A stretch of DNA of 42,884 bases from Candidatus Hydrogenedentota bacterium (GTDB lineage: Bacteria; Hydrogenedentota; Hydrogenedentia; Hydrogenedentales; JAEUWI01), in NCBI GenBank assembly GCA_016791475.1, contig JAEUWI010000059.1, positions 1 to 42,884 of the forward strand, given 5' to 3'. Numbering within the stretch: position 1 is the stretch's first letter; each line of letters starts with the position of its first letter. This document shows, piece after piece, positions 5,746-35,666 of the stretch. Below the pieces are notes generated by a model. That model was given only the letters and a program-made list of their open reading frames with translations, was not told the origin of the DNA and did no database searches. Made by a program: the position numbers and the translations under genes.

Positions 5746-6092
5746 GCGGGGAACGCTCCTGCGGCTCACATTCGGTTGCGGTAACGGTGCAGGGCCATGG
5801 GGGATGCGCACAAGACTCTCCCATCCTCCTCGGCCCACTCTTCAGGACGCCATGATAGCCCACGCCATGCTCCGATGCAATTGGCGTGAAAAAACGCCCC
5901 CGGGGGGCCGAATTCCCACCCAATCGCGGCCCAGTGTCCGAAGCCCCCTGGAACGGACCGCGGACATGCTGGCGGGACCTGGGCCAATGATAGCGGGACT
6001 GCTCGCGCTCCAACCGGGGAGGCGCTCCCGTGGCTCCTGTCGAGAGCGCAACCGTAAACGCGCGCGGAGGGGGCACTCTCCGAAAGCGAGCC
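5746..6092. other. 347-bp intergenic region without a gene
   Basis: This stretch lies between the start of pilT and the stop of the next minus-strand gene. Open frames crossing it have low-complexity translations and no ribosome binding sites. It should contain the pilT promoter, but no convincing -35/-10 pair was found. At 5889-5909, read on the minus strand, a CCCCC/GGGGG self-complementary block is followed by six Ts, which could weakly terminate the upstream gene. Confidence 0.5.
5889..5909 (-). terminator. Weak terminator-like GC palindrome with T-run
   Basis: On the minus strand GGCCCCCCGGGGGCG is followed by TTTTTT. The stem has almost no loop, so the hairpin would be short. It lies 184 bp beyond the stop of the gene at 6093-8546. 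Confidence 0.3.
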
Positions 6093-19695: not shown

Positions 19696-21087
19696 TCACC
19701 CCTCCAGCCCGTATTCCTTCATCTTCCGCCACAGGGTTGAGCGTGAGATTCCCAGCAGCTTGGCGGCTTTGGTCTGATTGCCTTTGAGCGACTCCAGCGT
19801 GGTCTGGATGTGGTTCTTTTCCAGTTCCACCAGGGTCATGACGCTGCGCTCAGCCTGGTGGGCGATGCGCAGGCGGGGCTTGATGCCGAACTGGACCTGG
19901 TCGGGCAGGTCGACCGCGTGGATGTGGGGGCCGTCGGCCATGATGACGGCGTGGGCGATGATGGTCTCCAGTTCGCGCACGTTGCCGGGGAATTCGTAGT
20001 GGGCCAGCAGACTTTTGGTTTGGTCGTCGAGCCCGGAGACCTGTTTGCCATAGCGGCTGTTGGCGAGCTTGATGAAATGCTGGATCAGGCTGGGCAGGGC
20101 TTCCATGCGTTCGCGCAAGGGGGGAATGCGAATCTGCACCACGTTAAGCCGGAAGTAAAGATCCTCGCGGAAGCGATTCTCCTCCACGGCGGTTACCAGG
20201 TCGCGATTCGTCGCCGCAATGATGCGGACGTTGACGCGCGTTGACGTGCTTGCGCCCACGCGGCGGATCTCGCCGTTCTGCAATACGCGCAAGAGCTTGG
20301 CCTGGGTAATGGGGGCCATGTCGCCGATTTCGTCCAGGAAAATGGTGCCGCCGTTGGCTTCCTCGAAGAGGCCGACTTTGTCTTGATTCGCCCCGGTGAA
20401 GGCGCCCTTCACGTGGCCAAACATCTCACTTTCGAGCAGGGCCTCGGGCAACGCCGCGCAGTTGATCGCGACAAAGGGCTTGTCCTTTCGCGCACTCAGG
20501 CGGTGGACCGCGTTGGCCAACACCTCTTTGCCCGTGCCGCTCTCGCCGAGAAGGAGGACGGTGCCGTCGGTGGGCGCGACCTTCTGCAGCAGCCGGATGA
20601 CCCGCTGCATGGCCGGGCTGTTGCCCGCGAGTTCCTCCACCATCCCCTGCTCATAGCGGTCCGCCGTGGTGGCCAGCGCGTGGACCTGCCGCGCCTTGGT
20701 CACCACCAGCGCCACATCGGAAGGCGGGCTGGACTTGGGCAGATAGAAAAAAGCGCCCTGACGGACCCCTTCCAACGCCCGATCCATCTCGTAGATATCA
20801 AATAGCAGAATAAGCCGCGCCGCCGGATTCTGCTCGCGGATAAACGAAACCAGATCGACGTCACTGTCCTGATTCAAATCGAGATCGAGGATGATGACGT
20901 CAAAGGGATGCCTCCCCACCAGACGCAGCACCCCCGCGGCGTCATGACAACGCTCCGTCCGGGCATGCTCCGTGGACAGGAAGTGCCCCACCGTATGGCC
21001 ATAGGCCACATCGGCACAGGCGATCAAAATATCCCCAAAGCGGTCCCGGAGGGGTGCGCTCTTCATTGCAACACGTGAAGCTTTCAT
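19696..21087 (-). CDS. Sigma-54-dependent transcriptional activator with degenerate receiver
   Basis: A 463-residue NtrC-family regulator. Order: receiver-like domain (about 12-125), AAA+ domain (about 145-380), Fis-type helix-turn-helix (about 420-460: NQTKAAKLLGISRSTLWRKM). The AAA+ part is intact, with Walker A GESGTGKE, the sigma-54-contacting GAFTGA loop, Walker B GTIFLDEIGDM and an arginine-finger region FREDLYFRLNV. The receiver keeps the phospho-acceptor position (VIILDLDLN) and the Lys (FYLPKS). The acidic pair after strand 1 is replaced (ILIACAD), and the usual Thr/Ser after strand 4 is absent (LILLFDIYE), so phosphorylation is doubtful. No histidine kinase is nearby. Start chosen at MKASRV; a long upstream extension is unlikely. 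Confidence 0.9.
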   Translation of the reverse strand: MKASRVAMKSAPLRDRFGDILIACADVAYGHTVGHFLSTEHARTERCHDAAGVLRLVGRHPFDVIILDLDLNQDSDVDLVSFIREQNPAARLILLFDIYEMDRALEGVRQGAFFYLPKSSPPSDVALVVTKARQVHALATTADRYEQGMVEELAGNSPAMQRVIRLLQKVAPTDGTVLLLGESGTGKEVLANAVHRLSARKDKPFVAINCAALPEALLESEMFGHVKGAFTGANQDKVGLFEEANGGTIFLDEIGDMAPITQAKLLRVLQNGEIRRVGASTSTRVNVRIIAATNRDLVTAVEENRFREDLYFRLNVVQIRIPPLRERMEALPSLIQHFIKLANSRYGKQVSGLDDQTKSLLAHYEFPGNVRELETIIAHAVIMADGPHIHAVDLPDQVQFGIKPRLRIAHQAERSVMTLVELEKNHIQTTLESLKGNQTKAAKLLGISRSTLWRKMKEYGLEG

Positions 21088-21094
21088 GCCTGCC

Positions 21095-21124
21095 ATTGTA
21101 CCATAATGAAGCGAAGCCGTGAAA
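21095..21124 (-). promoter_or_regulatory. Promoter of the sigma-54 activator, likely leaderless
   Basis: Minus strand TTTCAC (21119-21124), 18-bp spacer, TACAAT (21095-21100), then 7 nt to the ATG at 21087. The distance predicts a start site at or next to the ATG. No Shine-Dalgarno sequence at a usable distance is seen before that ATG. Confidence 0.45.
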
Positions 21125-21158
21125 TGAAATCTCAACGCGCACGCGATTGCAACGTTAG

Positions 21159-22700
21159 TCAGCCGGCGGTGTCCGTGAAACCAAAGGCGTAGAGACGGCA
21201 ATCCCGCATGATAAAGCGAAGGCGGACAGGCCTTCCGGCGAGGGACGCAACATCGGAGCCCTCTCCCCAGGACACGGGCGTCCGCACTGAGTTCCCGCAA
21301 AGGAGGGTCGCCTCCGCCCGGGAGAAGCCGGAAATCGGCGCGCCGACTTCGTCCAGCAGCTCAACCTGAACACTACCACCGCCGCCCGCGTCCATGTTCA
21401 ATTCAAGCCGGTTGCCGCTGAAGATCAGGGGACGCGTCGTCAATTCCCCGCCCGTGTAGTCCGCGTCCGCCGATACAAAGCCGTCCAGACGGAGGGTGGT
21501 CACAGAGATACCGCTGAGGAGTCCCTGGGCCGCCGGATCGACAAAGCCATCGTGGTCCTTGTTGGTGCCCGCATAGTAGATCCAGATTTCATCGCCCATG
21601 GGGATCGGGTTGGGAATGGCCCACACCATCTTCGAGTCGAAGGCGCCCGAGAGGCCCGGTGCCAGAAAGGGGCGTCGCCCGCCCACCCGCTCAAAGTGGA
21701 TGCCGTCACGACTCGCGTTCAGGCGCACATCGATCGTGGCCGGGCCGAGATTCTCGCCACTTTTTGGATTCTCCACATCCTTCACGCCCCAGCGCTGGCC
21801 CTCGGGGCGACGCTTGAAATGCCAGAAGGGTTGGCTGAGCATCAGATAGAGCCCCTCTTCGTCGGGATAGCGAAACACCGCGCCGCCGTAATAGTCCACC
21901 GGCGGCTTGGGCGTGGGAGAAGCGTAGGTGGCATCATCCACAGCATCCGCCTGGAGCACCAGGGTTTCGTTCTCCCACTTCGTCAAGTCGTCCGACTCCA
22001 GACGCCGGATGATCCGCGAGCGGGAAGGTGTGCCAGGGTTGGGATTGCGCCGGGTATAGAGCACATAGCGCCCAACCTGCCGATCCCAGAAGGCGATGCT
22101 CTGTGTATCGCAGTCGCCAATGTTCTCATGCATCCATTGCGTCCAGTGGATGCCGTCGTGTGAGGTGTAGGAATAAAGCTGTTGTGCCGTGGGTTCGTTG
22201 TAGCCCTTGCTCTGGCTTCGGTAGCGCTGCTCGGGGGACGCGTTGGGATCGATCCACACCGCGCATCCGCCAATACGACTCGGCATCACGATGTTGTTTT
22301 CCATTGAGCCATTCAGCGGGAAGATTCCCAGCGCCGGCTTCTCAAAGTGGATGCCATCGGTGGACTCCGCATAGGCCACCTGCACCGTATCGCCAAAGCG
22401 CACGTCATACCAGAGCCGCGTCTTTCCGTTCTCCCGAAGTACGCTGCAATACAGGCCGATACTCCCGTCCGCCGCCTCTTCCCACGGCGCATCGGGTAGA
22501 AGCACCGGACCCTCGAGTCGTTTCGACGGTGTATTCATCGTAAAGGTAACGCCCGACGCGGACTCGACTACACTTTGGTCAAGAAAGAGTTGCTTTCGGT
22601 CGCCAATGTCCAACACGCCGCTCGGTTCTGCAACCACCATGCTTCGGGACGAAGCCATGACCGCAACGGTAGCCAGCAGTACTATCAGAAGTGACTTCAT
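21159..22700 (-). CDS. Secreted GH32/43-like beta-propeller protein
   Basis: A 513-residue exported protein. ATG 22700 (MKSLLIVLLATVAVMASSRS) begins a signal peptide, with GGAGG about 11 nt upstream. The mature part begins LDIGDRKQLFLDQSVVE and has repeated propeller-blade patterns: TRLWYDV...VAYAESTDGIHFEKP, YSYTSHDGIHWTQW, RYVLYTRRNP, VRLNASRDGIHFERV and IWIYYAGTNKDHDGF. These resemble five-bladed propellers of GH32/43/68 and related 'hypothetical glycosyl hydrolase' proteins common in planctomycete-type genomes. A C-terminal beta-sandwich (about 400-510) contains GGSVQVELLDEVG, as in carbohydrate-binding modules. Likely a periplasmic or extracellular glycan-processing or binding protein. 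The catalytic residues cannot be assigned with certainty. Confidence 0.75.
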   Translation of the reverse strand: MKSLLIVLLATVAVMASSRSMVVAEPSGVLDIGDRKQLFLDQSVVESASGVTFTMNTPSKRLEGPVLLPDAPWEEAADGSIGLYCSVLRENGKTRLWYDVRFGDTVQVAYAESTDGIHFEKPALGIFPLNGSMENNIVMPSRIGGCAVWIDPNASPEQRYRSQSKGYNEPTAQQLYSYTSHDGIHWTQWMHENIGDCDTQSIAFWDRQVGRYVLYTRRNPNPGTPSRSRIIRRLESDDLTKWENETLVLQADAVDDATYASPTPKPPVDYYGGAVFRYPDEEGLYLMLSQPFWHFKRRPEGQRWGVKDVENPKSGENLGPATIDVRLNASRDGIHFERVGGRRPFLAPGLSGAFDSKMVWAIPNPIPMGDEIWIYYAGTNKDHDGFVDPAAQGLLSGISVTTLRLDGFVSADADYTGGELTTRPLIFSGNRLELNMDAGGGGSVQVELLDEVGAPISGFSRAEATLLCGNSVRTPVSWGEGSDVASLAGRPVRLRFIMRDCRLYAFGFTDTAG

Positions 22701-22892: not shown

Positions 22893-24653
22893 CTACCCCC
22901 GGTCGCTGTCAGTGAGGATCTTTCGCTTGGCCTGGCTTGCCCGCTTGTTTTCGGGTACCAGATCGCCGAACCAGGCGTCGTTCTTGCGCATGATCATGAC
23001 GGCGCGGTGGCACACGTCGCAGGAGACTTCGGCGCCTTCGGTGGTGGATTCGTTGAGCTGGATGAAGGTGCTGCAGAAGGGGCAGGCGATGCTGCGTTCT
23101 GAACTCTTGTGGTAGTCCTGAAGGATGCGGTCGATCTTGCCGTTGCGATAGCTTCGGATGAGGGCGTCGGCGCAGTCCGGGTCGAACTGGGTGCCTTTGT
23201 TTTCTTCAATGATCCTGATGGCCTTTTCTGGATCAAGGCCTTTGCGATAGGGGCGGTTGCTGGTGAGGGCATCGAAGGTGTCGCCCACGGCCACGGCGCG
23301 TCCCTCGATGGGGATCTCTTCGCCGGCGAGGCCATAGGGATAGCCCTTGCCGTCGTATCGCTCGTGGTGGTAGAGGCAATAGGGGATGAGGGGGACGAGG
23401 AAGTCCACGTCGCGGAGGAGCTGCGCCCCTTTCTCCGGGTGCACTTTGATCTTCTCGAATTCTTCGTCGGTAAGGCGGTCGGGCTTGCGGAGGATAGCGT
23501 CGTCTACGGCGATCTTGCCGACATCGTGGAGCACGCCGCCCATACGAACTTCTTTTAATTTTTCTTCGGGCCAACCCAGTTCTTTGGCGACTTCGATGGT
23601 AAAATTGGTTACACGCCACGTGTGGCCCACGGTGTAGTGGTCCCGCAATTCGATGGCGTTGGCGAGCACAAGGAGCGTGTCTTCGTAGGCCTTTTCCAGC
23701 ATGCGGACGTACTGAGCGTTCTTGATCGCGACGCCCGCGGGCCCGGCAAGTGCCACGAGAAGTTCCAGGTCGCTGTTGACGAAGGCGTTGGTGGTGCCGC
23801 GGGTGTCCACGTAGATGACGCCGAGGCATTCCTTCTGGCAGGTGAGGGGTGCGCACATGGCGGAGGCGATATTCTGACTGATGATGCTGGCACCGGCCTC
23901 GAAACGGGAATCGTCGGCCGCGTCGTAGGTGATGATGGCTTCACCGTGCTCGTAGGCGCGATTGACGATGGACGAACTGATTTTGACTTCCGCATTCTTA
24001 TCGCCGGAGCGGACAAACTCGGTGACGAGTTCGTCGCTGCCCGGAACGTGAAGGAGGATGACGCCGTTGTGGGCGGGAATGAGCTGGAAAATTTCCTGCA
24101 TCACCCGCTCGAACAGCTTGTTGAGGTTGCGTTCGCTGGTAATAATCTCGTTGGCGGCGTAGACCGCCCGCAGGCGCTGCTGAATCTCGGCCAGCTTCGT
24201 ATCGTTGGCGGCGGCGCCGGGACTCTGGAAAAACGTTTCGAACACGTTGGACGCTTTGGCGGTTTCAAAGTGCCCGCCCAGGGTGTTGTCGAACTTTACA
24301 CCGCCGCTACTGCCCCGCTCGGCTTCGCGGGTTGCCTTGGCCTGAATTTCCTCCTGGGAGAGCGCCTCGGCCTCGAAGCGCAGTTCCTGGGTGCCCAGGC
24401 GGAGCACATCGCCATGAGACAGTTTATATTCCAGGATGCGCCGATCACCGATGAAACTGCCGTTGCCGCTGCCCAGATCCCGGACAATGGTGGCGTGTTC
24501 GTTCTGCTCGATGACGGCATGCTGCCGGGAGATCTGGAGGTCTTCCAGTTGGAGGTCATTGTCGGGGTTTCGACCAATTGACAGTTTTCGCGTTATTTCA
24601 ATGGAGCGCCCCTGAAGGGGTCCCGTGAGTATGACCACCCGCTCTTTTCTCAT
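22893..24653 (-). CDS. FHA-GAF-HD-GYP c-di-GMP phosphodiesterase
   Basis: A 586-residue cytoplasmic signalling protein with four parts. FHA domain (about 1-95) has SIGR (25-28), ISRQH (41-45) and GSGNGSFI (61-68), a phosphothreonine-binding module. GAF domain spans about 168-312. HD-GYP domain (about 330-515) has LHDVGK (HD 376-377), VHPEKG, YHHERYDGKGYP (HHE 429-431, GYP 437-439) and VGDTFDALTS; all expected metal ligands are present, so c-di-GMP hydrolysis is likely. A C-terminal zinc-ribbon-like segment has CPFC (524-527) and CDVC (545-548). It is divergent from the exopolysaccharide operon that starts at 25157, which suggests control of that operon or of pilus behaviour through c-di-GMP. 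The FHA domain could read phosphorylation by a Ser/Thr kinase not present here. Confidence 0.93.
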   Translation of the reverse strand: MRKERVVILTGPLQGRSIEITRKLSIGRNPDNDLQLEDLQISRQHAVIEQNEHATIVRDLGSGNGSFIGDRRILEYKLSHGDVLRLGTQELRFEAEALSQEEIQAKATREAERGSSGGVKFDNTLGGHFETAKASNVFETFFQSPGAAANDTKLAEIQQRLRAVYAANEIITSERNLNKLFERVMQEIFQLIPAHNGVILLHVPGSDELVTEFVRSGDKNAEVKISSSIVNRAYEHGEAIITYDAADDSRFEAGASIISQNIASAMCAPLTCQKECLGVIYVDTRGTTNAFVNSDLELLVALAGPAGVAIKNAQYVRMLEKAYEDTLLVLANAIELRDHYTVGHTWRVTNFTIEVAKELGWPEEKLKEVRMGGVLHDVGKIAVDDAILRKPDRLTDEEFEKIKVHPEKGAQLLRDVDFLVPLIPYCLYHHERYDGKGYPYGLAGEEIPIEGRAVAVGDTFDALTSNRPYRKGLDPEKAIRIIEENKGTQFDPDCADALIRSYRNGKIDRILQDYHKSSERSIACPFCSTFIQLNESTTEGAEVSCDVCHRAVMIMRKNDAWFGDLVPENKRASQAKRKILTDSDRG

Positions 24654-24874: not shown

Positions 24875-25156
24875 TAGGGTCGCTGAGACAGGTTACAATA
24901 GCCCGTAAAGCACTTGGTGCCTGCGGAGATCCCGCGCCGTTGAACTGGTGTGTTTAGCGCGGTGTTCTCGGTTTTTCCCGGCACAGGGCGCCTGGCCACA
25001 GGGTTGTGGAGGTGACTCGACCGGAGAAACGCAGAAAATCAGATGTGCTCACACGTCGCCCGCACACGGATGTAGGTGCGGCGTGGTCGCAACCAACAAT
25101 GGATGTGGTTGGGATGGACTGGCGCCAGAGCATCGCTAGAATTAGGCAACGTGCGC

Positions 25157-26185
25157 ATGGATGATTCGCAATCGTATCTGGGGCTTCTGGGCCTGCGCGA
25201 GCAACCTTTTGCTCCCACGGCAGACCCGGTCTATTTCTATGCCACGCGCGCGCACAAGGAGTGCCTCTTCCGCCTTTGGAACGGGATTGACGCGAGCCAT
25301 GGCATTGCGGTCGTTCTGGGGAACTATGGCACGGGCAAGACGACGCTGCTGCGCAAGCTGATCACGGGTATGGCGGCGGAGCCGGAGCGTTATCAGACGG
25401 CGGTGGTGGGTTCGCCGATTCCTTCGTGGACCAGTTTTGCGTTGCTGGAGGCGATCGTGGCCCAGTTTGGCCTTCGCCCGGCGGAGCATTCTTTTGTCTC
25501 CCATATGGAGGCGCTGAACCAGCACCTGCTTGAAAACCGCCACCGCATCTGCACGCTGATCATCGACGACGCGCAGAATCTGAACAAGCGCGGCCAGCTT
25601 GAACTACTCCGGCTGGTGCAAAATCTTGAGACGCAGCAGCAGAAGCTCCTTAATCTGGTGTTTTTCGCCCAGTTGGAGTGGATGCAGGTGCTCCGGGCCG
25701 CGCCGAATTTCGAGCAGCGCATCAACCTGACCTATACCCTGGAGCCCATCCAGTTTGAAGAGATGCGGCTGTTTATCGATTTTCGCCTGCACCAGGCGGG
25801 CGCACAACCGGGGCTTGGCCCGTCCTTCGAAGAGGGCGCCCTGCGTGCGATTCACGCCTATGCGGAGGGAAGCCCCCGGGTCATCGTTACCCTCTGCCGC
25901 AACTCTCTGCTGCTCGCGGCACAACTGAAGACCCGGCAGATTACGCCGGATATCGTGCTCCACACCATCGAGAAAACCACCTTGCCCGATGCGGAGAAGC
26001 GCGCACGGGCGGCCCAGGCCGCGGGCATGGCGCCGCCGCCACGAGTCGTCGCGCCCGCCGTGACGGCGGCGGGACTGGTGCGTGAGCCGGTGGCGCGGGA
26101 GCAGCAGTCCCGGGACCGCCGCGCGGCGGACCTGCTGCTGCGATCGGCCCGGGATCGCCAGGGCCAGGGATCGGGGGGCCTATGA
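25157..26185 (+). CDS. ExeA/GspA-like AAA ATPase of the polysaccharide operon
   Basis: A 342-residue AAA+ ATPase starting at MDDSQSYLGLLGLREQPF; a longer frame back to 25076 is low quality. The opening 'YxxLGLxxxPFxxTxDPxxFY' is typical of ExeA/GspA and of the XrtA/PEP-CTERM-associated ATPase (TIGR03015-like). Walker A is GNYGTGKTT (about 75-83) and Walker B is CTLIIDDAQNL (about 135-145), followed by a sensor region NLVFFAQLEW. ExeA proteins work with the bitopic ExeB to place the secretin ExeD through peptidoglycan. Here the gene overlaps by 4 bp a bitopic TPR protein and precedes a secretin, so an analogous assembly role is a reasonable inference. The C-terminal 60 residues are Arg/Ala-rich and lack the known ExeA peptidoglycan-binding domain. 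Confidence 0.85.
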   Translation: MDDSQSYLGLLGLREQPFAPTADPVYFYATRAHKECLFRLWNGIDASHGIAVVLGNYGTGKTTLLRKLITGMAAEPERYQTAVVGSPIPSWTSFALLEAIVAQFGLRPAEHSFVSHMEALNQHLLENRHRICTLIIDDAQNLNKRGQLELLRLVQNLETQQQKLLNLVFFAQLEWMQVLRAAPNFEQRINLTYTLEPIQFEEMRLFIDFRLHQAGAQPGLGPSFEEGALRAIHAYAEGSPRVIVTLCRNSLLLAAQLKTRQITPDIVLHTIEKTTLPDAEKRARAAQAAGMAPPPRVVAPAVTAAGLVREPVAREQQSRDRRAADLLLRSARDRQGQGSGGL

Positions 26186-28590
26186 GCCCAGGGGCCGATC
26201 GAGACCATCGGGACCCTTCGACCGAGGGGGACGCCTACGTGCGCCAGCAACTGGCGTCGATCGACGGCAGCCTGTTTAACGGGATGCCGGTGGATGATCG
26301 CTACGAGAGCGGCGTGCCGGAAACACAGCGCGGCAATTCCCTCGACTTTATTCAAATGACGGGACTGACCCGCCCGCCGCTGCGCCAGGCGCTTCACGGG
26401 ATTGACGGGTCGCTGGCCCACACGCCCATTTATGAAGATCTGAATCCCCAGGGTCCGCTGAGCTTCTACGAGAAGGGTGTGGCGGATGTGGATGACACCC
26501 TGAGCGGCGATTCACTGCTCGGCGGACTGCGGGACATCACGCTCGACGCGGATCTGATTCCCAATCGGAATACCGAATCCCTGGTGGTGGACGGCGGCGC
26601 CTCGCGTTCGGCGCAGGCTTTCCGCGACATCGTCGCGGGGCTCCAGCGCGTGGAGGAAAACCCCTCGGCCGACGCGCCGGTGGATGCGGAAAGCGAAGAA
26701 GCCGCGGATCTCCCGAGTGATCCGGAGGAGTATCAAGGCTCCGCGTCCGGCGCGCTGCTGGCGCTGGTGGAGGAGCTTGAGTCGGTCATGGGCGTGGAAG
26801 CCGCCGATACGGTGGAGCCGGAAGGCACCTCCGACGCGGCGAATGAGACCGATCTCGAGATCGAAGACGAAGCAACGGAGCCGGGTGAAGTGGCCCCCGA
26901 GGAGGCGCCTGAAGCCTCCGCACCCACGGCAAACCTGTCGGCGCCGGCCGCCGAGATTGACGATGACGATTTCGACGCGCTGCTGGCCTCTCTTTCGGGG
27001 CGCGCGACGGAAGCGGCTCCGGAAGAAGTCGATGTGCCTGCGGCGGAGGACGCCATCGAGGAAGAACCGGAAGAACCGGTCGCACCCGAGGCTCCCGCGC
27101 GGGAAGACGACGCACCAGCGGCCCGATCGGGGATTTCCGATGATTGGGACGCCCTGCTCGATTCCATGACGGTCCGCGGCTCAGCGCCGGCGGCTGTATC
27201 CGTGCCGGCCCCGACGGTGTCGCGCACGTCCCCGGCGAGCGGCGCCCTTGCGGAAGCGGAGCAACTGATGCAGGCGCTGGAGAAGCGCGCGCCAATCGCA
27301 CCGCCCGCCGCACCGGCGCCCCTTCCCGTCGTGGCGAAGGCTCCAGGGGCGGCATTGCCCCTTGAGCCGGCACCGCTGGAGGATTTGAGTTACGGGGGCA
27401 CACAGGCTCCCCCTACGGCCCTGGATCTCCGGATGCGCGAGCGGGCGGAAAACACGGTCCCCACGGAGGCGACCCCGACCATTGCTCCCAATCCCGACAG
27501 TGATCTGGCTTTCAACTACGACTACAGCGCCGCGCCTTCGCGCCGCCGCTCGCGCCGCCATTCACGGGTGGCCCGCAAGAGCAGAAAGATTGTCAAGGCG
27601 GTATTTTTCCTTCTATTACTCGGCGGTCTGGCGGGAACCCTCTGGACCTTCGTGATTGGCCCGATGATGCTTCAGGACGAGGACCTGACGGTCCGGGCGG
27701 AGCGGGAGTTGTCGGATCAGAACTATCTTGCGGCGTCCCATACCTATCTGCAACTGGCGTCCCGCATGGCGCCGGGAGAGAAGGGCCGCTCCGACGCGGA
27801 ATTCCGCGCCGCCCACACGCTGACCCTTGGCCCGGCGACCTCCTGGGACGAGACGCGGCAGCGCTACGAGAGCGCGCTGGCGCTTTTCAAGAAGTTTACG
27901 GAAGACTATCCCCAGCACCCCAAGCGCACCCGGGCACTGAGTATCATGGGGCGGCTGCACTACGAGCTCAAGCAATTCGAAGAAGCGATAGCCGTGCTTC
28001 GCGATCAAGTAAAACCGGCGGACGATCCGGCGGCGGCGCTGTCCATGTTGCGCTATCTTGCGCGCTCCTACAGCATGACCGGCAACTACGAACAGGCCGA
28101 GACCTCCTACCTCCAGTCGGCCACGCTGCCCGGAAACTACAGCGCGGAATCGGACTATCTGGAACTGGGAGATCTCTTCCGGCGCCGGGCCGAAGCCGCA
28201 CGGGACGGCGCGGAGCGTGAGCAGTTGAAGGAGATGGCGATGTCGTACTGGCGGAGGGCTATTCAGGTGCCGGGAATCGCCCCGAGTGATCGGAGCAATC
28301 TTGAGGAGCGCCTTCAGTGGCTCTCCTTTGCCGAGCAGACGGACGCCAACGCGACTGACGCGGTTCCCGCCGCCGAGGGCGCCCCGCCCGCGCCGGCAAC
28401 CGCGCCCGCGTCCGTCGCGCCGGCGGAGTCGGAATCGGTGGCGCCGGTGGAATCGGCCATACCGGTTCCACAGGATGAGTCCGGTCGTGCCGAAATTCCC
28501 GGGGCGGAGCTCGAAGCGCTCGTGCCCCCGGCGCCCGCCCCCGAGGCGGCCGCCGGACCGGCCGCCGCCCCGGAATTCGAAAGTCAATGA
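26182..28590 (+). CDS. Bitopic TPR protein with long acidic cytoplasmic region
   Basis: An 802-residue protein whose ATG overlaps the previous stop (ATGA). Residues 1-455 are hydrophilic, largely disordered and very acidic/Pro-Ala-rich, apart from a conserved-looking N-terminus (about 10-150). A basic stretch (RRRSRRHSRVARKSRK) precedes one transmembrane helix (about 474-496: VFFLLLLGGLAGTLWTFVIG), giving N-in/C-out topology. The periplasmic part (about 505-720) consists of TPR-like helical repeats (LAASHTYLQLASRMAPGEKG; ALFKKFTEDYPQHPKR; QAETSYLQSATLPG) followed by a Pro/Ala-rich tail. Same operon as the ExeA-like ATPase and the secretin. The topology parallels ExeB/GspB, and TPR proteins are also common in PEP-CTERM polysaccharide loci. 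Possible scaffold linking ATPase and secretin; function not proven. Confidence 0.8.
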   Translation: MSPGADRDHRDPSTEGDAYVRQQLASIDGSLFNGMPVDDRYESGVPETQRGNSLDFIQMTGLTRPPLRQALHGIDGSLAHTPIYEDLNPQGPLSFYEKGVADVDDTLSGDSLLGGLRDITLDADLIPNRNTESLVVDGGASRSAQAFRDIVAGLQRVEENPSADAPVDAESEEAADLPSDPEEYQGSASGALLALVEELESVMGVEAADTVEPEGTSDAANETDLEIEDEATEPGEVAPEEAPEASAPTANLSAPAAEIDDDDFDALLASLSGRATEAAPEEVDVPAAEDAIEEEPEEPVAPEAPAREDDAPAARSGISDDWDALLDSMTVRGSAPAAVSVPAPTVSRTSPASGALAEAEQLMQALEKRAPIAPPAAPAPLPVVAKAPGAALPLEPAPLEDLSYGGTQAPPTALDLRMRERAENTVPTEATPTIAPNPDSDLAFNYDYSAAPSRRRSRRHSRVARKSRKIVKAVFFLLLLGGLAGTLWTFVIGPMMLQDEDLTVRAERELSDQNYLAASHTYLQLASRMAPGEKGRSDAEFRAAHTLTLGPATSWDETRQRYESALALFKKFTEDYPQHPKRTRALSIMGRLHYELKQFEEAIAVLRDQVKPADDPAAALSMLRYLARSYSMTGNYEQAETSYLQSATLPGNYSAESDYLELGDLFRRRAEAARDGAEREQLKEMAMSYWRRAIQVPGIAPSDRSNLEERLQWLSFAEQTDANATDAVPAAEGAPPAPATAPASVAPAESESVAPVESAIPVPQDESGRAEIPGAELEALVPPAPAPEAAAGPAAAPEFESQ

Positions 28591-28655: not shown

Positions 28656-30149
28656 ATGCAGATTTCCAGAGCGTTCAGAACCGCCTTCTCGCTTGTTGGC
28701 CTGTTGCTTTGCGGCGCGGCCGTGTCGCAGGAACCGGAGGCGGAAGCGAAGGCGGCGACGGGCACGGCCCTGGACGCGGGCGATCTGGTTTTTATCAACG
28801 TTCACCGGCAACCGGAGCTATCCACGACGACGCAATTGGATGCGAACGGCAACGTGGAAGTGCCCTACATCGGGAATGTATCCCTCAAAGGACTCTCGCT
28901 GGAAGAGGCGGGCGCCCGGGTATCCATGGGGCTGAAGGCGGTGCTCAAGAACCCGAAGGTGACGGTGTCCCGGAGCACGGAGGGCGAGAAGATTCCGGGG
29001 GGCTACGTGCGCACGGCTTCGATGCAGACCCAGGTGGTGCCGCTGAACAGCGCGGACGCGGAGTCGCTCCAGGCGGCGCTCTCGGGGATGTCGAGCGGTG
29101 GAGGGAGTGTGAGCTTTGATCCGAACACGAACAGCATGATCCTGACCGACGAGCCCGCGGTGGTGCAGAACATGCTGTCGGTGATCCGCGAACTGGACGA
29201 GATGAAATCCCAGATTACGCAGGTCCTGATTGAATCGAAGATTGTGGAAGTGGAGACGGCGGCGGCGAAGGAACTGGGTATCCGCTGGTTCGTGCAGGGC
29301 GACGAGGCGGCGGGCGGTTACAGCCCGGCGCCCCGCCAGGATGCGCTGCTTAACTCCATGCGCCAGTATGCGGGCGCCAACGTGAACGAGGCCCTGCAAA
29401 GCTCCACCCGCACGGGTACGGCGGGCGGGCGGCGCTTCATTGATGAAAGCAATTTTGACCGGCGCCTTCAGGTGCCGGTGCAGGTAGGCACGGCGGGACA
29501 GATGTTCTTCGGCTACATGAACAGCGGCATCGATCTGGGGGTCATGCTGGATGCGCTGGTGGCGGACGACAAGGCGGAATTGCTCGCCTCGCCCTATATC
29601 GGCACCGTGAATCACAAACCAGCCTCTATCCGGATGATCGAGGAATTCCCCTATTCGGAACTGGGCACGGCGGGATTCTCATCGGTCTCAAATACCCGCT
29701 TTCTGGAAATCGGCATCACTTTGGACGTGACGCCCCACGTGCGCCGCGACCCCGACGGTGGGCGCTATATTCTTGTCGAGCTTACGCCCGAGGTCTCCAC
29801 CGCGGTGGGTGTTTCCAACGGCGTTCCGGTCCGCGCGGTCCGCAGCAGCGACAGTCAGCGCATCGTGCGCGACGGCCAGTCCCTGGTGATTGGCGGAATT
29901 GTGATGGCGGACAACCACACGGTGATCCAGAAGCTTCCGGGCCTGGGCAACCTGCCGATTTTCGGAAATCTCTTCAAACACCAGGAGCGGAGCAAGACCA
30001 GCCGCGAGCTCATGATATTTGTGACGCCGACCATCCATGATCAGCCGGAAGATATCCAGTGGGAGCGCAGCCTGGAGTTGCAGGGCTTTGGCCACGACGA
30101 CGCGTTTCTCGCGGCGCTGGAATCTCGGGCGGAAGTGCGCAAGGAATAG
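28656..30149 (+). CDS. Fusion of Wza-type polysaccharide export domain and secretin
   Basis: A 497-residue exported protein (signal peptide about 1-24, no canonical lipobox). Residues about 36-108 form a Poly_export/Wza-like domain: GDLVFINVHRQPELS, LDANGNVEVPYIGNV, LKGLSLEEAGARV, VLKNPKVTV. After a short linker comes one secretin N-domain (about 124-186: TQVVPLNSADAESLQAAL...NSMILTDEPAVVQNM). The secretin beta-barrel domain follows (about 190-470), with VLIESKIVEVE, LLASPYIGTVNHKPA, ELTPEVS, VRDGQSLVIGGIVM and LPGLGNLPIFGNLFK...SRELMIFVTPTI, all typical of GspD/PilQ secretins. It would form a gated outer-membrane channel. It sits between the TPR protein and the Wzz/BY-kinase, so the likely cargo is exopolysaccharide. 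The domain combination is unusual: Wza itself has no secretin barrel, and secretins normally begin with N0 or AMIN domains. Confidence 0.9.
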   Translation: MQISRAFRTAFSLVGLLLCGAAVSQEPEAEAKAATGTALDAGDLVFINVHRQPELSTTTQLDANGNVEVPYIGNVSLKGLSLEEAGARVSMGLKAVLKNPKVTVSRSTEGEKIPGGYVRTASMQTQVVPLNSADAESLQAALSGMSSGGGSVSFDPNTNSMILTDEPAVVQNMLSVIRELDEMKSQITQVLIESKIVEVETAAAKELGIRWFVQGDEAAGGYSPAPRQDALLNSMRQYAGANVNEALQSSTRTGTAGGRRFIDESNFDRRLQVPVQVGTAGQMFFGYMNSGIDLGVMLDALVADDKAELLASPYIGTVNHKPASIRMIEEFPYSELGTAGFSSVSNTRFLEIGITLDVTPHVRRDPDGGRYILVELTPEVSTAVGVSNGVPVRAVRSSDSQRIVRDGQSLVIGGIVMADNHTVIQKLPGLGNLPIFGNLFKHQERSKTSRELMIFVTPTIHDQPEDIQWERSLELQGFGHDDAFLAALESRAEVRKE

Positions 30150-30152
30150 GCC

Positions 30153-32405
30153 ATGTCGAGTATTGATACGCCGATCCTTGAAGAGGGGACGCGACAGCCG
30201 AAAGAGAACCAGTTCCGGTTTCTCTGGAATATCTTTTCAGAGCGCTGGGCGCTGTTGCTTTTCAGCACGATACTCGGCGCGGTTTCCTTCGGCGGGCTTA
30301 CGTGGATGACCCACAAGACCACGCCGACCCTCTATCAGGCCACGGGCATGCTTATCATCAAGCCGACGGAGTATTCCCAGTTGGCGCCGAAGTCGGCCGG
30401 CTCGCCCACCTTGCAGGCGGCCACGCTGGTGGCCAAGACCAGCGAATCCGCGGTGGCAGAGGAAGTCGCCCGGGCGCTGATCCAGCGGGATATTGCGACC
30501 GGCGGCCCGCGCAGCGATGTGGCCACGGAAGAGGAATTCAAGGTGGAGTCGCAGCGCGTCGCCGGGAAGATCAAGTTCTCGACGAGCAAGGACAGCAAGG
30601 ATCAGATAGAGATCCACGTTCAGGGCTGCGAGAGTGCGCGGGAGGCGGAGGACATCGCGGAGTATGCGACGCGGGTGTTCATGGAGATGAACCGCCAGGT
30701 ACACATGGAGGATGTGCGGGAAAAGCACGACTTCATCAAGGAGCACATCCAAAAGCTGCGCGCGGATCTGTCGGCGGCGGAAGAAGCCCGGCTGGCCTTT
30801 AAGAAGGAGCATGGGTTCCGGGCCTATGAGACGGTGGATCAGGAACTGGCGCGGATGGAGCACGCGCTGAGCGAATCCGAATCCACCCGTGAGACGGTGA
30901 AACAGAAACTGGCGGAGTTGGACAAGGAACTGGAGCTGGCGGCGGAGCAGTTTTCCGAGTCGCTGAATCAACCGAGCGACAACATGGTGACGGGACTCTT
31001 CGCGGAGTTGGACGGGCTGCTGGAAGAAAAGATGTCGCTCAGCGCCATCTACCAGCCCACCTGGCCGCGGCTTCTGGAGCTGGAGGAGGAAATCGCCGAG
31101 ACCCAGGGCCTGATCATGGAGGCGGAGCGCCAGAAGTCGATTGGAATCCCCGGCGGCAGCGATATCTGGACGAAGCGAAAAAACATCTACCAGCAGCAGA
31201 TCGACCTGCGCCTCCAACTGACGGGGCTCGAGATCCGGGCGAACGCCATCAAGAAGGAGCGCGACGAATTGCTCCCCCAGGTGCCGGAGCTGGTGAATTT
31301 GAAGATGTCCTCCGAAGAGTTGACGCGCGAGGTGGACAATATCGAGCAGAAGCTCAATGAGGCCTCGGACAAGGAGCTGGAGATCCGGGCGAATATCGAG
31401 CACGGCCTGGGTTCGGTGGAGCGCACGGCTTCGGTGATCAGCGGGGTGCCGACGCCCGGCAAGGGCTCGGGGCGGCAGAGCTGGGTCAACTTCGCGATTG
31501 GCGGCCTGGTGGGACTGGTGCTCAGCTTTGGCCTGGCGATGATGATCGAGTTTAACGACACGTCGATTCGCAGCATCGAGGACGTGAACGAGTATATCGG
31601 CCTGGAGGTGATCGGCACGATCCCGCGGATGCGCTTCGGGCGGCCCCGGGGCGGACGCCGTCGCCGGGCGACCTATGTGAGCACGGTGGACGAGGAGCAG
31701 ATCGACTCGTGCATCGTGACGCAGCACGATCCGAAATCGCCCATCTCCGAGGCCTACCGGACCCTGCGCACGAACTTCCAGTTTGCCACGATCAAGCTCA
31801 AACCGAAAACAGTGATGGTGACCAGCGCGGTGCCGGGCGAAGGCAAGACGACGACGGCGGTGAACCTGGCGGTGACCATGGCGGATCGCGGCATGCGCGT
31901 CCTGATCGTGGACACGGACTTGCGCCGCCCCAATGTACATCGCGTGCTGCGCATGGAGCGGGGCCCGGGCCTCGCCGACGTGCTCCGCGAAGGGCTGGAT
32001 CCGAAGAGTGTCATCCGCCCCACGCGGATCGAGAACCTCTGGATTATTTCCAGCGGCCGGGTGCCTCCGAACCCTTCGGAACTCATTGGCTCCGACCACA
32101 TGGCGGCGCTCATGGGCCAGTTGGGCGACGAGTTCGATCTGGTCATCTGCGACGCGCCCTCGGTGCTGGTGGTGACCGACCCCGTGCTGCTGGCTACGCA
32201 TGTGGACACGTGCATGATGGTCGTTTCGACGAATAACGCGCGGCGCGAGACGGTGGTGCGGGCGAAGAAGCTGCTCACGACGGCGCAGGTGGACGTGGCG
32301 GGCGTGGTGGTGAACGGCCTGGAGACGACGCGTCGCCACTACTATTACTATTACTACTACTATGACGACGGTTCTCAGGGCCGGCGGAAATGGTACCACT
32401 TTTGA
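30153..32405 (+). CDS. Wzz-type chain-length regulator fused to BY-kinase
   Basis: A 750-residue inner-membrane protein, 3 bp after the secretin gene. The N-terminal Wzz domain is bounded by TM1 (about 33-52: ALLLFSTILGAVSFGGLTWM) and TM2 (about 452-472: FAIGGLVGLVLSFGLAMMI), with a long periplasmic coiled coil between (KHDFIKEHIQKLRADLSAAEE onward). The cytoplasmic bacterial tyrosine kinase domain has Walker A VPGEGKTT (560-567), Walker A' VLIVDTDLRRPN and Walker B LVICDAPS. The C-terminus contains eight consecutive tyrosines (730-737), the autophosphorylation cluster of this family. It controls polymer length and couples polymerisation (Wzy, next gene) to export. The family counterpart is GumC/Wzc/EpsB. 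All catalytic motifs look intact. Confidence 0.95.
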   Translation: MSSIDTPILEEGTRQPKENQFRFLWNIFSERWALLLFSTILGAVSFGGLTWMTHKTTPTLYQATGMLIIKPTEYSQLAPKSAGSPTLQAATLVAKTSESAVAEEVARALIQRDIATGGPRSDVATEEEFKVESQRVAGKIKFSTSKDSKDQIEIHVQGCESAREAEDIAEYATRVFMEMNRQVHMEDVREKHDFIKEHIQKLRADLSAAEEARLAFKKEHGFRAYETVDQELARMEHALSESESTRETVKQKLAELDKELELAAEQFSESLNQPSDNMVTGLFAELDGLLEEKMSLSAIYQPTWPRLLELEEEIAETQGLIMEAERQKSIGIPGGSDIWTKRKNIYQQQIDLRLQLTGLEIRANAIKKERDELLPQVPELVNLKMSSEELTREVDNIEQKLNEASDKELEIRANIEHGLGSVERTASVISGVPTPGKGSGRQSWVNFAIGGLVGLVLSFGLAMMIEFNDTSIRSIEDVNEYIGLEVIGTIPRMRFGRPRGGRRRRATYVSTVDEEQIDSCIVTQHDPKSPISEAYRTLRTNFQFATIKLKPKTVMVTSAVPGEGKTTTAVNLAVTMADRGMRVLIVDTDLRRPNVHRVLRMERGPGLADVLREGLDPKSVIRPTRIENLWIISSGRVPPNPSELIGSDHMAALMGQLGDEFDLVICDAPSVLVVTDPVLLATHVDTCMMVVSTNNARRETVVRAKKLLTTAQVDVAGVVVNGLETTRRHYYYYYYYYDDGSQGRRKWYHF

Positions 32406-32534: not shown

Positions 32535-34055
32535 ATGCCATTCTTCCGTTCAGAGCGGGGCATCGGCCGCGGTGAAGTCGCGGAGAGCCAGCTCGAAGTG
32601 CCCATTTTTGCGGCCTTCATGGTGATCTGCTGCGTGGGCCTCGTGCTCCAGCACATGATCCTCGGCAATCAAAGCCTCACCATCGCCCTGTCCATCAGCA
32701 TGCTGGTGTTCGGCGGCACGGTCCTCCGGGTGGAGGTGGGGCTCTTTGTGCTGCTGGTGGCCATGCTGCTTTCGCCTGAAATCGAGCTGCGCCCCGGATC
32801 GGGCGGCGACCGCAACGTCAATATTCGCTATGACGACATTCTGATTCTGGTCATTTTCATCGGCGTGATGATCAAGCTCACCTTTGAAGGCCGTCTCACC
32901 CTCTGGCAGCCGAGCCCGATCAACGTGGCGATTGTCGCCTACTTCAGCGTCTGCATCTTTTCCACACTGCTGGCCCTCGAGCGCAGCCTTCCCGCGTGGG
33001 ATCGCCGCGCGGCTTTTTTCGTGTTGCTCAAGATGATGGAGTTCTACCTGATCTTTTTCATGGTGGCCCACTCGGTGCGCCGCTCGCGGGATCTCCGCAC
33101 GCCCATGACCCTGTTTTTCCTGGTGATGCTGATCGTCAGCGTTTTCGGCATGCACTCCATCGGAACGACGCCCCGGGTGAGCGCACCCTTCGAAAAAGGG
33201 GGCACGGAGCCGAACACCCTGGGTGGTTACCTGGTGGTCTGTCTGTGCGTCGCGCTGGGCTTGCTGATCCAGGCGCCGGGGTTTAAGAAGAAGCTTCTGT
33301 TTCTGATGCTGTGCGGCGCCGGTTTCGTGCCCCTCCTCTACACGCTGAGCCGCGCCTCCTACGGCGGGCTGATCGCCGGGATCACGGTGATCGCGCTGAT
33401 GAGCCGCCAGTACGCCATTCTCGCCGCGCTGGCGATCACCCTCGCGCTTTCCTCGGTGATCATGCCCGACGTGGTGATCGAGCGCGTGATGAAAACGGTG
33501 CAGGAGGAAGGCGGGCAGGAAGTGGTGATCGCGGGCCAGGAGCTGGGCAAGGTGGACAAATCGACCTATGAGCGGGTTCACGTCTGGCGAAAGGTGGCCT
33601 TCCTCTTGTCCCTCGGCACGGAGTTCTTCTTGTTTGGCGGGGGTATATCCTGGGAGTCGGTGCTGGACAGCCAATACGCGCGCGTATTGCTCGAGACCGG
33701 ATTCGTGGGGCTTTTTACCTTCCTGTTTCTACAATGGCGACTCCTGCGAACAACGCGGGAGGCCTACCGCTGGACGGAGGACTGGATGGCCCGGGGTATC
33801 GCGCTGGGCATGTTCGGCGCCACGCTCGCGCTGGTCGTCCACTCGATCGGAACCATCTCGTTTCTGATCGTCCGCATCATGGAGCCCTATTGGTTCCTCA
33901 TCGCGCTCACGGTCTCGATCCGTAATGAAGCAATCGCCCGGCACACGGCCCGATTCCTGGCGAAGAAGCAGGCGGCGGCGCTGGCAAAAGAAAAAGCGCC
34001 TTCCGCACCGGATATCCCGGCGGTGGAAGGCGCGGCGGCCTCTGCGGCCCGCTGA
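32535..34055 (+). CDS. Wzy-like O-antigen ligase/polymerase membrane protein
   Basis: A 506-residue polytopic membrane protein with about 10-12 hydrophobic helices. The characteristic large periplasmic loop and Wzy_C signature are present: NTLGGYLVVCLCVALGLL, LYTLSRASYGGLIAG, a loop with YERVHVWRKVAFLL, then GGGISWESVLDSQYARVLLETGFVGLFTFLFLQW (quoted in parts). This matches the O-antigen ligase/polymerase superfamily that joins lipid-linked repeat units in the periplasm. The C-terminal tail is cytoplasmic and Ala/Lys-rich. It is the last gene of the plus-strand cluster, 129 bp after the BY-kinase. Glycosyltransferases and a flippase (Wzx) are absent from this cluster and must lie elsewhere. 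Confidence 0.85.
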   Translation: MPFFRSERGIGRGEVAESQLEVPIFAAFMVICCVGLVLQHMILGNQSLTIALSISMLVFGGTVLRVEVGLFVLLVAMLLSPEIELRPGSGGDRNVNIRYDDILILVIFIGVMIKLTFEGRLTLWQPSPINVAIVAYFSVCIFSTLLALERSLPAWDRRAAFFVLLKMMEFYLIFFMVAHSVRRSRDLRTPMTLFFLVMLIVSVFGMHSIGTTPRVSAPFEKGGTEPNTLGGYLVVCLCVALGLLIQAPGFKKKLLFLMLCGAGFVPLLYTLSRASYGGLIAGITVIALMSRQYAILAALAITLALSSVIMPDVVIERVMKTVQEEGGQEVVIAGQELGKVDKSTYERVHVWRKVAFLLSLGTEFFLFGGGISWESVLDSQYARVLLETGFVGLFTFLFLQWRLLRTTREAYRWTEDWMARGIALGMFGATLALVVHSIGTISFLIVRIMEPYWFLIALTVSIRNEAIARHTARFLAKKQAAALAKEKAPSAPDIPAVEGAAASAAR

Positions 34056-34076: not shown

Positions 34077-35579
34077 TCAGTGACCGCGCACGGCGTCGAG
34101 CCGAGGCACGGCATAGGTCCCCATGTGGATCTGGTCGAACATGCTCTTGTCCGTGGCAAAGGACTGGGCATGCTCCATGTCGATCTTCCCATCTTTGAAA
34201 AGACTGTGGAGGTAGTGTTCGAAGAGGAAGGAGTGGGACACGGTCTGCTGCATGCCGATACGGATGTGATCGGTGCTGCCCTCCATGATGCCGTCGGCCA
34301 CCGCTTTAACGTCGTTGAGCATCATTTCCAGCGCGGGCACGCGGCCACCGCCGATCCGGGGCACGAGCCGCTGGCAGATGACGCACTTGAGGCAGTCGCG
34401 CAACTGGAGTTTGACCAGGTCGCGTTCGACGGGGTCGAAGAAGCTCACGATACGGTTCACCACTTCCGCGGCGGTATTGGCGTGAAGGGTGCTCACCACC
34501 AGGTGGCCCGTGGCGGCGGCGTTGATGGCCGAGCGGATGGTGTCGGGGTCGCGCATTTCGCCGATGAGAATGACGTCGGGGTCGTGACGGAGCGCGCCGG
34601 TCACCGCGTCATTGAAGGAGTCCACATCGATCCCCAGATTTCGCTGGGAAATCACCGACTTCTTGTTCGTGTGAACAAATTCCACCGGATTCTCGATGGT
34701 CAGAATGTGGCTGGAACGGGTGCTGTTGATCCAGTCGATGACGGCGGCCACGGTGGTGGACTTGCCGCTTCCGGTCATGCCCGTGACGAGGAGCAGACCG
34801 CGGTGGAGACTGGCCAACTGCTCCATGGTCTTGCGGGGGACGTGGAGATCCTCGAAGCTGGGAATCGTTTCCGGCAGGAAGCGCAGCGTGCAATGGGGCG
34901 CGCCCGACTTGATAAACGCGGACACGCGGGAATAGCCCAGGCCGGACTGGTGAAAGTTGAAACTGGTCTGCTTGTGGTTGACGAATTCGTCCCACGCCTC
35001 ATCGAGGGCCATCTCGCGGATCAGTTCGGTAATCTGCACGGCCGAAAGGGCGCCCATCAGCTCCGAGGTGCGGGTATCGCCGTCGATGCGGAAGATGGGG
35101 CTGACGCCGGGAGAGAGGTGGACGTCGCTCGCCTTGTACTGGACCATGGCCTGGAAAAGAAGCTCCACGCTGATGCGGTCGATGCGGTAGTTGCTTCCCT
35201 CCGCGCGCCACACCTCGGGGATTCGCAGTTTTGCGCAGAACTGGTCAAGCGCCAACAGTCTTTCCTCGGTCACGGGACCGCTGGGGGGCACAAAGGAGAA
35301 TTGAACCACGCCGTCCTGCTTCTCGACGGTGCAGGCGTGAGCGAGACGCGCCGCACGCGCCTCCAACTCGGGGACGAGCGGGTCGCCGGTCTGAACGCGT
35401 ACGGTAAAGCGGGTGAAGGGGTCGTCAAATTCCAGGCGTTCGGCTTCGAAGGCAAAGGTGCCGAACCAGGCGGAAATCTTGCGGGGGATGCCTTCCGTGC
35501 GAAGCAGGTGCTTCTCGAGGAGCGTGGTAATCTGGCGCAGGTTTTTTTGCGAACCCGTACCCAGTAGGAACGTAGCCAT
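34077..35579 (-). CDS. PilT/PilU-like ATPase with N-terminal extension
   Basis: A 500-residue ATPase starting at MATFLLGTGS, with AGGAGG 8 nt upstream. Residues 1-135 are an extension not found in PilT. The PAS-like N2 domain begins near 138 (LLFQAMVQYKASDVHLSPGVSPIFRIDG). The core has Walker A GMTGSGKST (267-275), Asp box ILTIENPVEF, DPDVILIGEMRD (333-344) and His box VSTLHANT. The retraction motif AIRNLIRE is not conserved: the equivalent region reads DVKAVADGIMEGSTDH. That places it nearer PilU or a divergent paralogue than the canonical PilT at 4651-5745. It is convergent with the exopolysaccharide operon, only 21 bp from the Wzy stop. Confidence 0.88.
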   Translation of the reverse strand: MATFLLGTGSQKNLRQITTLLEKHLLRTEGIPRKISAWFGTFAFEAERLEFDDPFTRFTVRVQTGDPLVPELEARAARLAHACTVEKQDGVVQFSFVPPSGPVTEERLLALDQFCAKLRIPEVWRAEGSNYRIDRISVELLFQAMVQYKASDVHLSPGVSPIFRIDGDTRTSELMGALSAVQITELIREMALDEAWDEFVNHKQTSFNFHQSGLGYSRVSAFIKSGAPHCTLRFLPETIPSFEDLHVPRKTMEQLASLHRGLLLVTGMTGSGKSTTVAAVIDWINSTRSSHILTIENPVEFVHTNKKSVISQRNLGIDVDSFNDAVTGALRHDPDVILIGEMRDPDTIRSAINAAATGHLVVSTLHANTAAEVVNRIVSFFDPVERDLVKLQLRDCLKCVICQRLVPRIGGGRVPALEMMLNDVKAVADGIMEGSTDHIRIGMQQTVSHSFLFEHYLHSLFKDGKIDMEHAQSFATDKSMFDQIHMGTYAVPRLDAVRGH

Positions 35580-35614
35580 GCAACAACCTCCTGTCTCTCT
35601 CATTTGGTTTGCCC

Positions 35615-35630
35615 GTGAGGGAACCCTCAC
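35615..35630 (-). promoter_or_regulatory. Inverted repeat at the 5' end of the PilT-like mRNA
   Basis: GTGAGGG-AA-CCCTCAC is a perfect 7-bp inverted repeat starting just downstream of the predicted transcription start (about 35631). It may be an operator or a 5' stem-loop protecting the mRNA. Confidence 0.45.
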
Positions 35631-35637
35631 AGGGGGT

Positions 35638-35666
35638 ATACTAGCGCTTGTGTGATGGGAGTTCAA
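35638..35666 (-). promoter_or_regulatory. Promoter of the PilT-like ATPase gene
   Basis: Minus strand TTGAAC (35661-35666), 17-bp spacer, TAGTAT (35638-35643), followed within 8 bp by the inverted repeat 35615-35630 and then the AGGAGG ribosome binding site. Confidence 0.6.

Follow-up and report, generated by a model that had tools for sequence, protein, structure and literature searches.

Can a secretin export polysaccharide? Secretins export folded proteins, pili and phage, and we know of no polysaccharide-exporting secretin. The question is raised by a gene in the window analysed here (the whole 42,884-nucleotide stretch from position 1 of contig JAEUWI010000059.1, from a Candidatus Hydrogenedentota bacterium, a group that has received little study), in which the D1 domain of OPX proteins is joined to a secretin in one protein.

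Domain content and structure of the fusion protein

The fusion gene (28656..30149, plus strand) encodes 497 amino acids, from an ATG at 28656 to a TAG stop at 30147-30149; a GGAG ribosome-binding site precedes the ATG by about 10 bases. Three Pfam domains, all scoring above cut-off, lie in this single reading frame: Poly_export (D1, PF02563; residues 35-105, 28758..28970, plus strand; E 9.5e-16, 58.2 bits against a cut-off of 28), Secretin_N (N3-like, PF03958; residues 125-186, 29028..29213, plus strand; E 1.3e-14) and the secretin barrel (PF00263; residues 300-460, 29553..30035, plus strand; E 1.9e-34), in which all secretin signature motifs are present. The initial annotation had read from the sequence a Poly_export-like domain at the N terminus, one secretin N-domain and a complete barrel, and had suggested these same three profiles as a check; all three features are confirmed, with a single Secretin_N. 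No Pfam match to STN/N0, AMIN, SLBB or Wza_C was found in the 497-residue protein. The signal peptide, read by eye, is probably of type I, with no clear lipobox.

Among named NCBIfam profiles the best are GspD and PilQ, which match residues 119-468 but score far below their cut-offs (188.8 against 351.35 bits and 181.7 against 284.35 bits, respectively). The Secretin_N domain aligns with the last N domain preceding the barrel in the GspD profile TIGR02517 (profile positions 268-597). OPX profiles (EpsE and XrtA-type) match residues 39-107.

A single-chain AlphaFold2 model was made from an alignment with 14 orthologues (mean pLDDT 64; about 81 in D1, 84 in the N domain and mostly 62-87 in the barrel), in which residues 202-305 are unreliable. 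In a Foldseek search of the PDB, secretins are the top matches (GspD, E 4e-16), several of the matched secretin structures being 13-15-mers, and the OPX proteins WzaB (9n9a) and Wza come next. A single-chain model leaves the relative orientation of the domains arbitrary, which lowers the whole-chain TM-scores, and the per-domain match is decisive: the modelled D1 superposes on D1 of the Class-3 OPX WzaB (9n9a) at 0.9 Å over 72 columns. Residues 26-105 also match WzaB 9n9a by sequence (phmmer against the PDB, E 7e-5), and the C-terminal part matches PilQ/GspD by sequence and by fold. The N-terminal domain is not an ordinary N0/STN domain, the alternative that the initial annotation had raised against itself, as it matches OPX D1 structures; an N0/STN domain mistaken for Poly_export is ruled out by Pfam together with this fold match.

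Judged on the sequence of its barrel, a PF00263 domain preceded by Secretin_N, the fusion is a secretin. It shares the N3-like domain and the barrel with all signature motifs with GspD (T2SS) and PilQ (T4P), but differs from them in having no N0/AMIN, a single Secretin_N, an OPX D1 base and polysaccharide gene neighbours. As it falls below the cut-offs and lacks N0/AMIN, it is not a GspD or a PilQ. With OPX Classes 1-3 (PMC9603273) it shares the N-terminal Poly_export domain and a nearby copolymerase, but it has no SLBB and no Wza_C or GfcC, and the lack of SLBB places it outside the three-class definition. In two large OPX surveys the definition of the family combines Poly_export with SLBB or D2-type domains, and secretins go unmentioned (PMC9603273, PMC9601211).

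Distribution and conservation

Orthologues of the fusion were found computationally in 28 of 68 Hydrogenedentota genomes and 21 of 44 genera, and named records assign the family to Candidatus Hydrogenedentota. All 14 full-length members scanned carry Poly_export, Secretin_N and Secretin, and none of the 14 has a match to SLBB, Wza_C or GfcC. In a tree of 91 secretins, the sampled fused barrels fall together on one side of a fully supported branch (100/100), consistent with a single origin of these barrel sequences. When codons are compared with those of three near relatives, D1 (pN about 0.18-0.20, pS 0.60-0.81), the N domain and, most strongly, the barrel prove to be under purifying selection; the signal peptide and linker show little and are far freer. 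The C terminus ends in a short conserved tail, mostly E-x-R-K-E/D, in 14 of 14 members, preceded by a variable stretch.

The window comes from a fragmented MAG of 529 contigs, so that a gene-prediction or assembly error joining two genes has to be considered. The probability of this is close to nil, and the artefact was rejected: the frame is uninterrupted in many MAGs from separate studies, all domains are present in 14 of 14 scanned members, and both halves are under purifying selection. Recurrence in independently assembled MAGs thus argues that the fusion is not an assembly chimera. In one relative (L046:7741-9232, G023:C135) a frameshift or an assembly error has broken the gene into two overlapping frames (366 and 172 codons), and the copolymerase gene is also split.

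Outside the phylum, a profile of D1 plus Secretin_N (A2), which in a control recovered all six known positives at E < 1e-49, detected no fusion in 40 Sumerlaeota, 297 Acidobacteriota and 334 Omnitrophota genomes (671 in total). Two short peptide patterns searched against genome contigs likewise gave no fusion outside Hydrogenedentota; matches in WOR-3, Idiomarina and others were rejected, as they have no D1. By inspection, the Omnitrophota matches L199, L201 and L202 are ordinary secretins with an N0-type domain, and L200 is an ordinary OPX. Two records with other labels (L063, Nitrospiraceae; L069, Rhodothermaeota) appear from GTDB to be the Hydrogenedentota genomes G052 and G032; the records are probably mislabelled, and thus no transfer is claimed. 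The fusion was not found in viral contigs, and no plasmid record covers 80% of the protein. The initial annotation knew of no characterised protein of this kind, in line with the literature search, in which no paper describing an OPX-secretin fusion and no polysaccharide-exporting secretin were found.

Operon and co-inheritance

The next gene begins 3 bases past the fusion-gene stop and encodes a 750-residue polysaccharide copolymerase and BY-kinase of the Wzc type (30153..32405, plus strand) with a Tyr-rich C-terminal tail, RRHYYYYYYYYDDGS. Its kinase domain is complete (TIGR01007, E 3.4e-53, above cut-off), and the protein matches the chain-length profile TIGR03007 (E 9.6e-19) as well as Wzc structures including the Wza-Wzc complexes 9r62-9r69. 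It is followed by a 506-residue Wzy/O-antigen-ligase-like polytopic membrane protein (32535..34055, plus strand), for which TIGR00947 (E 3.6e-9, 36.1 bits against a cut-off of 366) and PF04932 (E 0.007, 16.6 bits against 31.7) are both below cut-off. Upstream lie an AAA ATPase of the ExeA/XrtA-associated type (25076..26185, plus strand; PF13401; TIGR03015 at E 4.3e-44, below cut-off), in which no peptidoglycan-binding domain was found, and a bitopic protein (26182..28590, plus strand) with an acidic cytoplasmic region, one transmembrane helix and periplasmic TPRs (topology read by eye; TPR_12/TPR_19 above cut-off, YbgF-like E 1.6e-8).

The order ATPase, TPR protein, fusion, copolymerase/BY-kinase, Wzy-like protein is kept across families wherever the contig reaches, and in relatives the operon is bordered by an FHA-GAF-HD gene of divergent orientation and, in many cases, by a PilT-like gene. 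In the window the former (22893..24653, minus strand; PF00498, PF01590, PF13487; GYP motif read by eye) encodes an FHA-GAF-HD(-GYP) protein, a possible link of the operon to c-di-GMP, and is followed by a sigma-54 type response regulator (19696-21300, minus strand). The latter (34077-35666, minus strand), a PilT-like T2SSE ATPase gene, is kept in several relatives, including some without the fusion; a second PilT-like T2SSE match lies at 4651-5838 (minus strand; C59:4888-5406). Among the cluster genes scanned, none was recognised as encoding a flippase, an initiating transferase or a glycosyltransferase. Nor were a pilin, GspE/F/G/C or PilMNOP recognised in the cluster, where the PilT-like gene on the opposite strand is the only one of this sort.

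The initial annotation had suggested surveying genomes for the same architecture beside copolymerase/BY-kinase genes. It was found there wherever the contig reaches, and the fusion and Wzy-like genes occur in an identical set of 28 of the 68 genomes; the chance of this is about 7e-10 when stratified by family, a figure that ignores kinship inside families. In the subset of 38 genomes with a completeness of 90% or more and a contamination of 5% or less, the fusion is present in 17 and the Wzy-like gene likewise in 17. An orthologue of the ATPase is present in 38 genomes, 12 of which have no fusion. At loci without the fusion the ATPase gene is still there, in some cases together with the TPR, FHA and PilT-like genes, while fusion, copolymerase and Wzy-like genes were not found in them; at L163, the ATPase-TPR pair directly adjoins the PilT-like gene and the trio is absent. 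Within genus g44, the ATPase is in all three genomes, and the fusion and Wzy-like gene are together in one and absent from two. Co-inheritance is strong but is not independent evidence, because some of the contigs concerned stop short and neighbouring genes go missing jointly from incomplete MAGs.

The same genome carries other export genes. A canonical Poly_export-SLBB protein is encoded on contig C9 (L002, L049; G000) beside its own copolymerase-like gene, with an exosortase gene about 7 kb away, marking a separate XrtA-like polysaccharide locus, and a further secretin is encoded at C14:65901. Thus, the fusion belongs to an additional system. Overall there are 19 T2SSE matches in the genome, and nine strong GspE/PilB-type matches lie outside the fusion cluster. 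XrtA/PEP-CTERM exopolysaccharide clusters resemble the fusion cluster in that their OPX, copolymerase, tyrosine kinase and TIGR03015-type ATPase profiles match it, although all below cut-off except the general kinase profile. However, the fusion cluster has no adjoining exosortase, and the OPX of XrtA/PEP-CTERM clusters is not known to be a secretin.

A candidate route for polysaccharide export

As the fusion is always found with sugar-polymer genes, polysaccharide probably exits by a route not described before. The reading preferred here, to which we give a probability of roughly 0.7, is that the fusion is a polysaccharide-exporting secretin and serves a Wzx/Wzy-type exopolysaccharide system as its outer-membrane translocon. 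The oligomer, its docking, the polysaccharide substrate and the assembly helpers are what we infer, as follows. The protein would be exported to the outer membrane, where its N3-like domain and barrel domain would build the secretin ring and barrel, with a ring of OPX D1 hanging from the periplasmic end where ordinary secretins have N0-N2. D1 would dock on the helical arms that the co-encoded Wzc-like copolymerase/BY-kinase extends into the periplasm, and polymer from the co-encoded Wzy-like enzyme would pass through the copolymerase into the secretin and outside.

The docking step is modelled on E. coli (capsule/colanic acid), where the helical arms of Wzc touch D1 of Wza in a 2026 cryo-EM study, interface mutations abolish polymer production and deletion of D1 abolishes Wza-Wzc co-localisation (PMC12881504). 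As D1 is where Wza docks on Wzc, the sole OPX domain kept in the fusion is the very one that a secretin would require for attachment to a copolymerase. Both systems have D1 and a homologous Wzc-type copolymerase/BY-kinase, but Wza consists of D1-D3 and an alpha-helical C8 pore, whereas the fusion has exchanged D2, D3 and the helical pore for an N3-like domain and a secretin barrel, suggesting that D1 couples the secretin to the copolymerase and that polymer exits through the secretin. The proposal of the initial annotation that a Wza-type domain replaces N0 as the docking part is supported by this precedent (PMC12881504) and by the lack of N0/STN in the fusion, docking by the fusion itself being drawn by analogy. 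The ExeA-like ATPase and the bitopic TPR protein may aid secretin assembly in the manner of ExeA/ExeB, which act through the N0-N1 domains of the ExeD secretin to assemble it (PMC4098917). Since the ATPase has no peptidoglycan-binding domain and is also present without the fusion, this helper role is speculative.

Class-3 OPX systems of Myxococcus xanthus (EpsY/EpsX, WzaB/WzpB) offer a second comparison. They too have an OPX D1, no helical Wza_C pore and a nearby copolymerase, and in both cases polymer would exit through a beta-barrel. However, their OPX is D1 plus D2 (SLBB) with a separate 18-stranded monomer barrel (PMC9601211, PMC9603273), whereas in the fusion D1 alone is joined to a multi-subunit secretin. 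The fusion would work like a composite OPX/barrel translocon.

The main difficulty for the polysaccharide-secretin reading is symmetry. Wza-Wzc is C8 (PMC12881504), whereas solved secretins have about 13-15 subunits; docking would thus call either for mismatched symmetries or for a secretin that is out of the ordinary. That a giant multi-subunit secretin exports polysaccharide by docking a D1 ring of secretin symmetry on a Wzc-type octamer is somewhat favoured. Also counting against the polysaccharide-secretin reading are the lack of an SLBB domain to contact polymer, the PilT-like ATPase gene adjoining the operon, the scores of the Wzy-like protein below cut-off, the lack of a recognised flippase, initiating transferase or glycosyltransferase in the cluster, and the modest mean pLDDT of the full model with its unreliable residues 202-305.

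The fusion could instead be a protein- or pilus-exporting secretin of the T2SS/T4P-like kind, with D1 only a docking or spacer domain, a protein substrate and neighbours that regulate biofilm. The normal barrel, the GspD and PilQ profiles as best named matches, the ExeA-like ATPase and the PilT-like gene kept beside the cluster would fit this. However, the cluster has no recognised pilin, GspE/F/G/C or PilMNOP, the fusion scores far below the GspD and PilQ cut-offs, and the PilT-like and ATPase genes persist without the fusion while the Wzy-like gene never does. The GspE/PilB-type matches and the secretin at C14:65901 also lie elsewhere in the genome, and overall this explanation is unlikely. 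It is quite improbable that the fusion is a periplasmic or outer-membrane anchor or control element, for example holding the copolymerase under a pore, while polymer leaves through the C9 OPX or another barrel: the barrel is complete and the most strongly conserved part, next to the C9 OPX gene lies a copolymerase-like gene belonging to it, and the fusion is co-inherited with its own copolymerase and Wzy-like genes. This holds even though a canonical Poly_export-SLBB protein is encoded near an exosortase gene and some OPX proteins require a separate barrel (Schwabe et al., PMC9601211).

If the polysaccharide-secretin reading is true, the fusion is a further outer-membrane polysaccharide route in addition to the helical pore of Wza, the composite OPX/18-strand barrel and synthase-dependent barrels. 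How polymers exported by OPX proteins without a helical pore cross the outer membrane has been an open question (PMC9603273, PMC9601211), to which the fusion would add a further answer. It makes the question of symmetry, C8 versus about C13-C15, a pointed one, and would be a natural experiment suggesting that, of Wza, D1 alone is required to couple a pore with a copolymerase.
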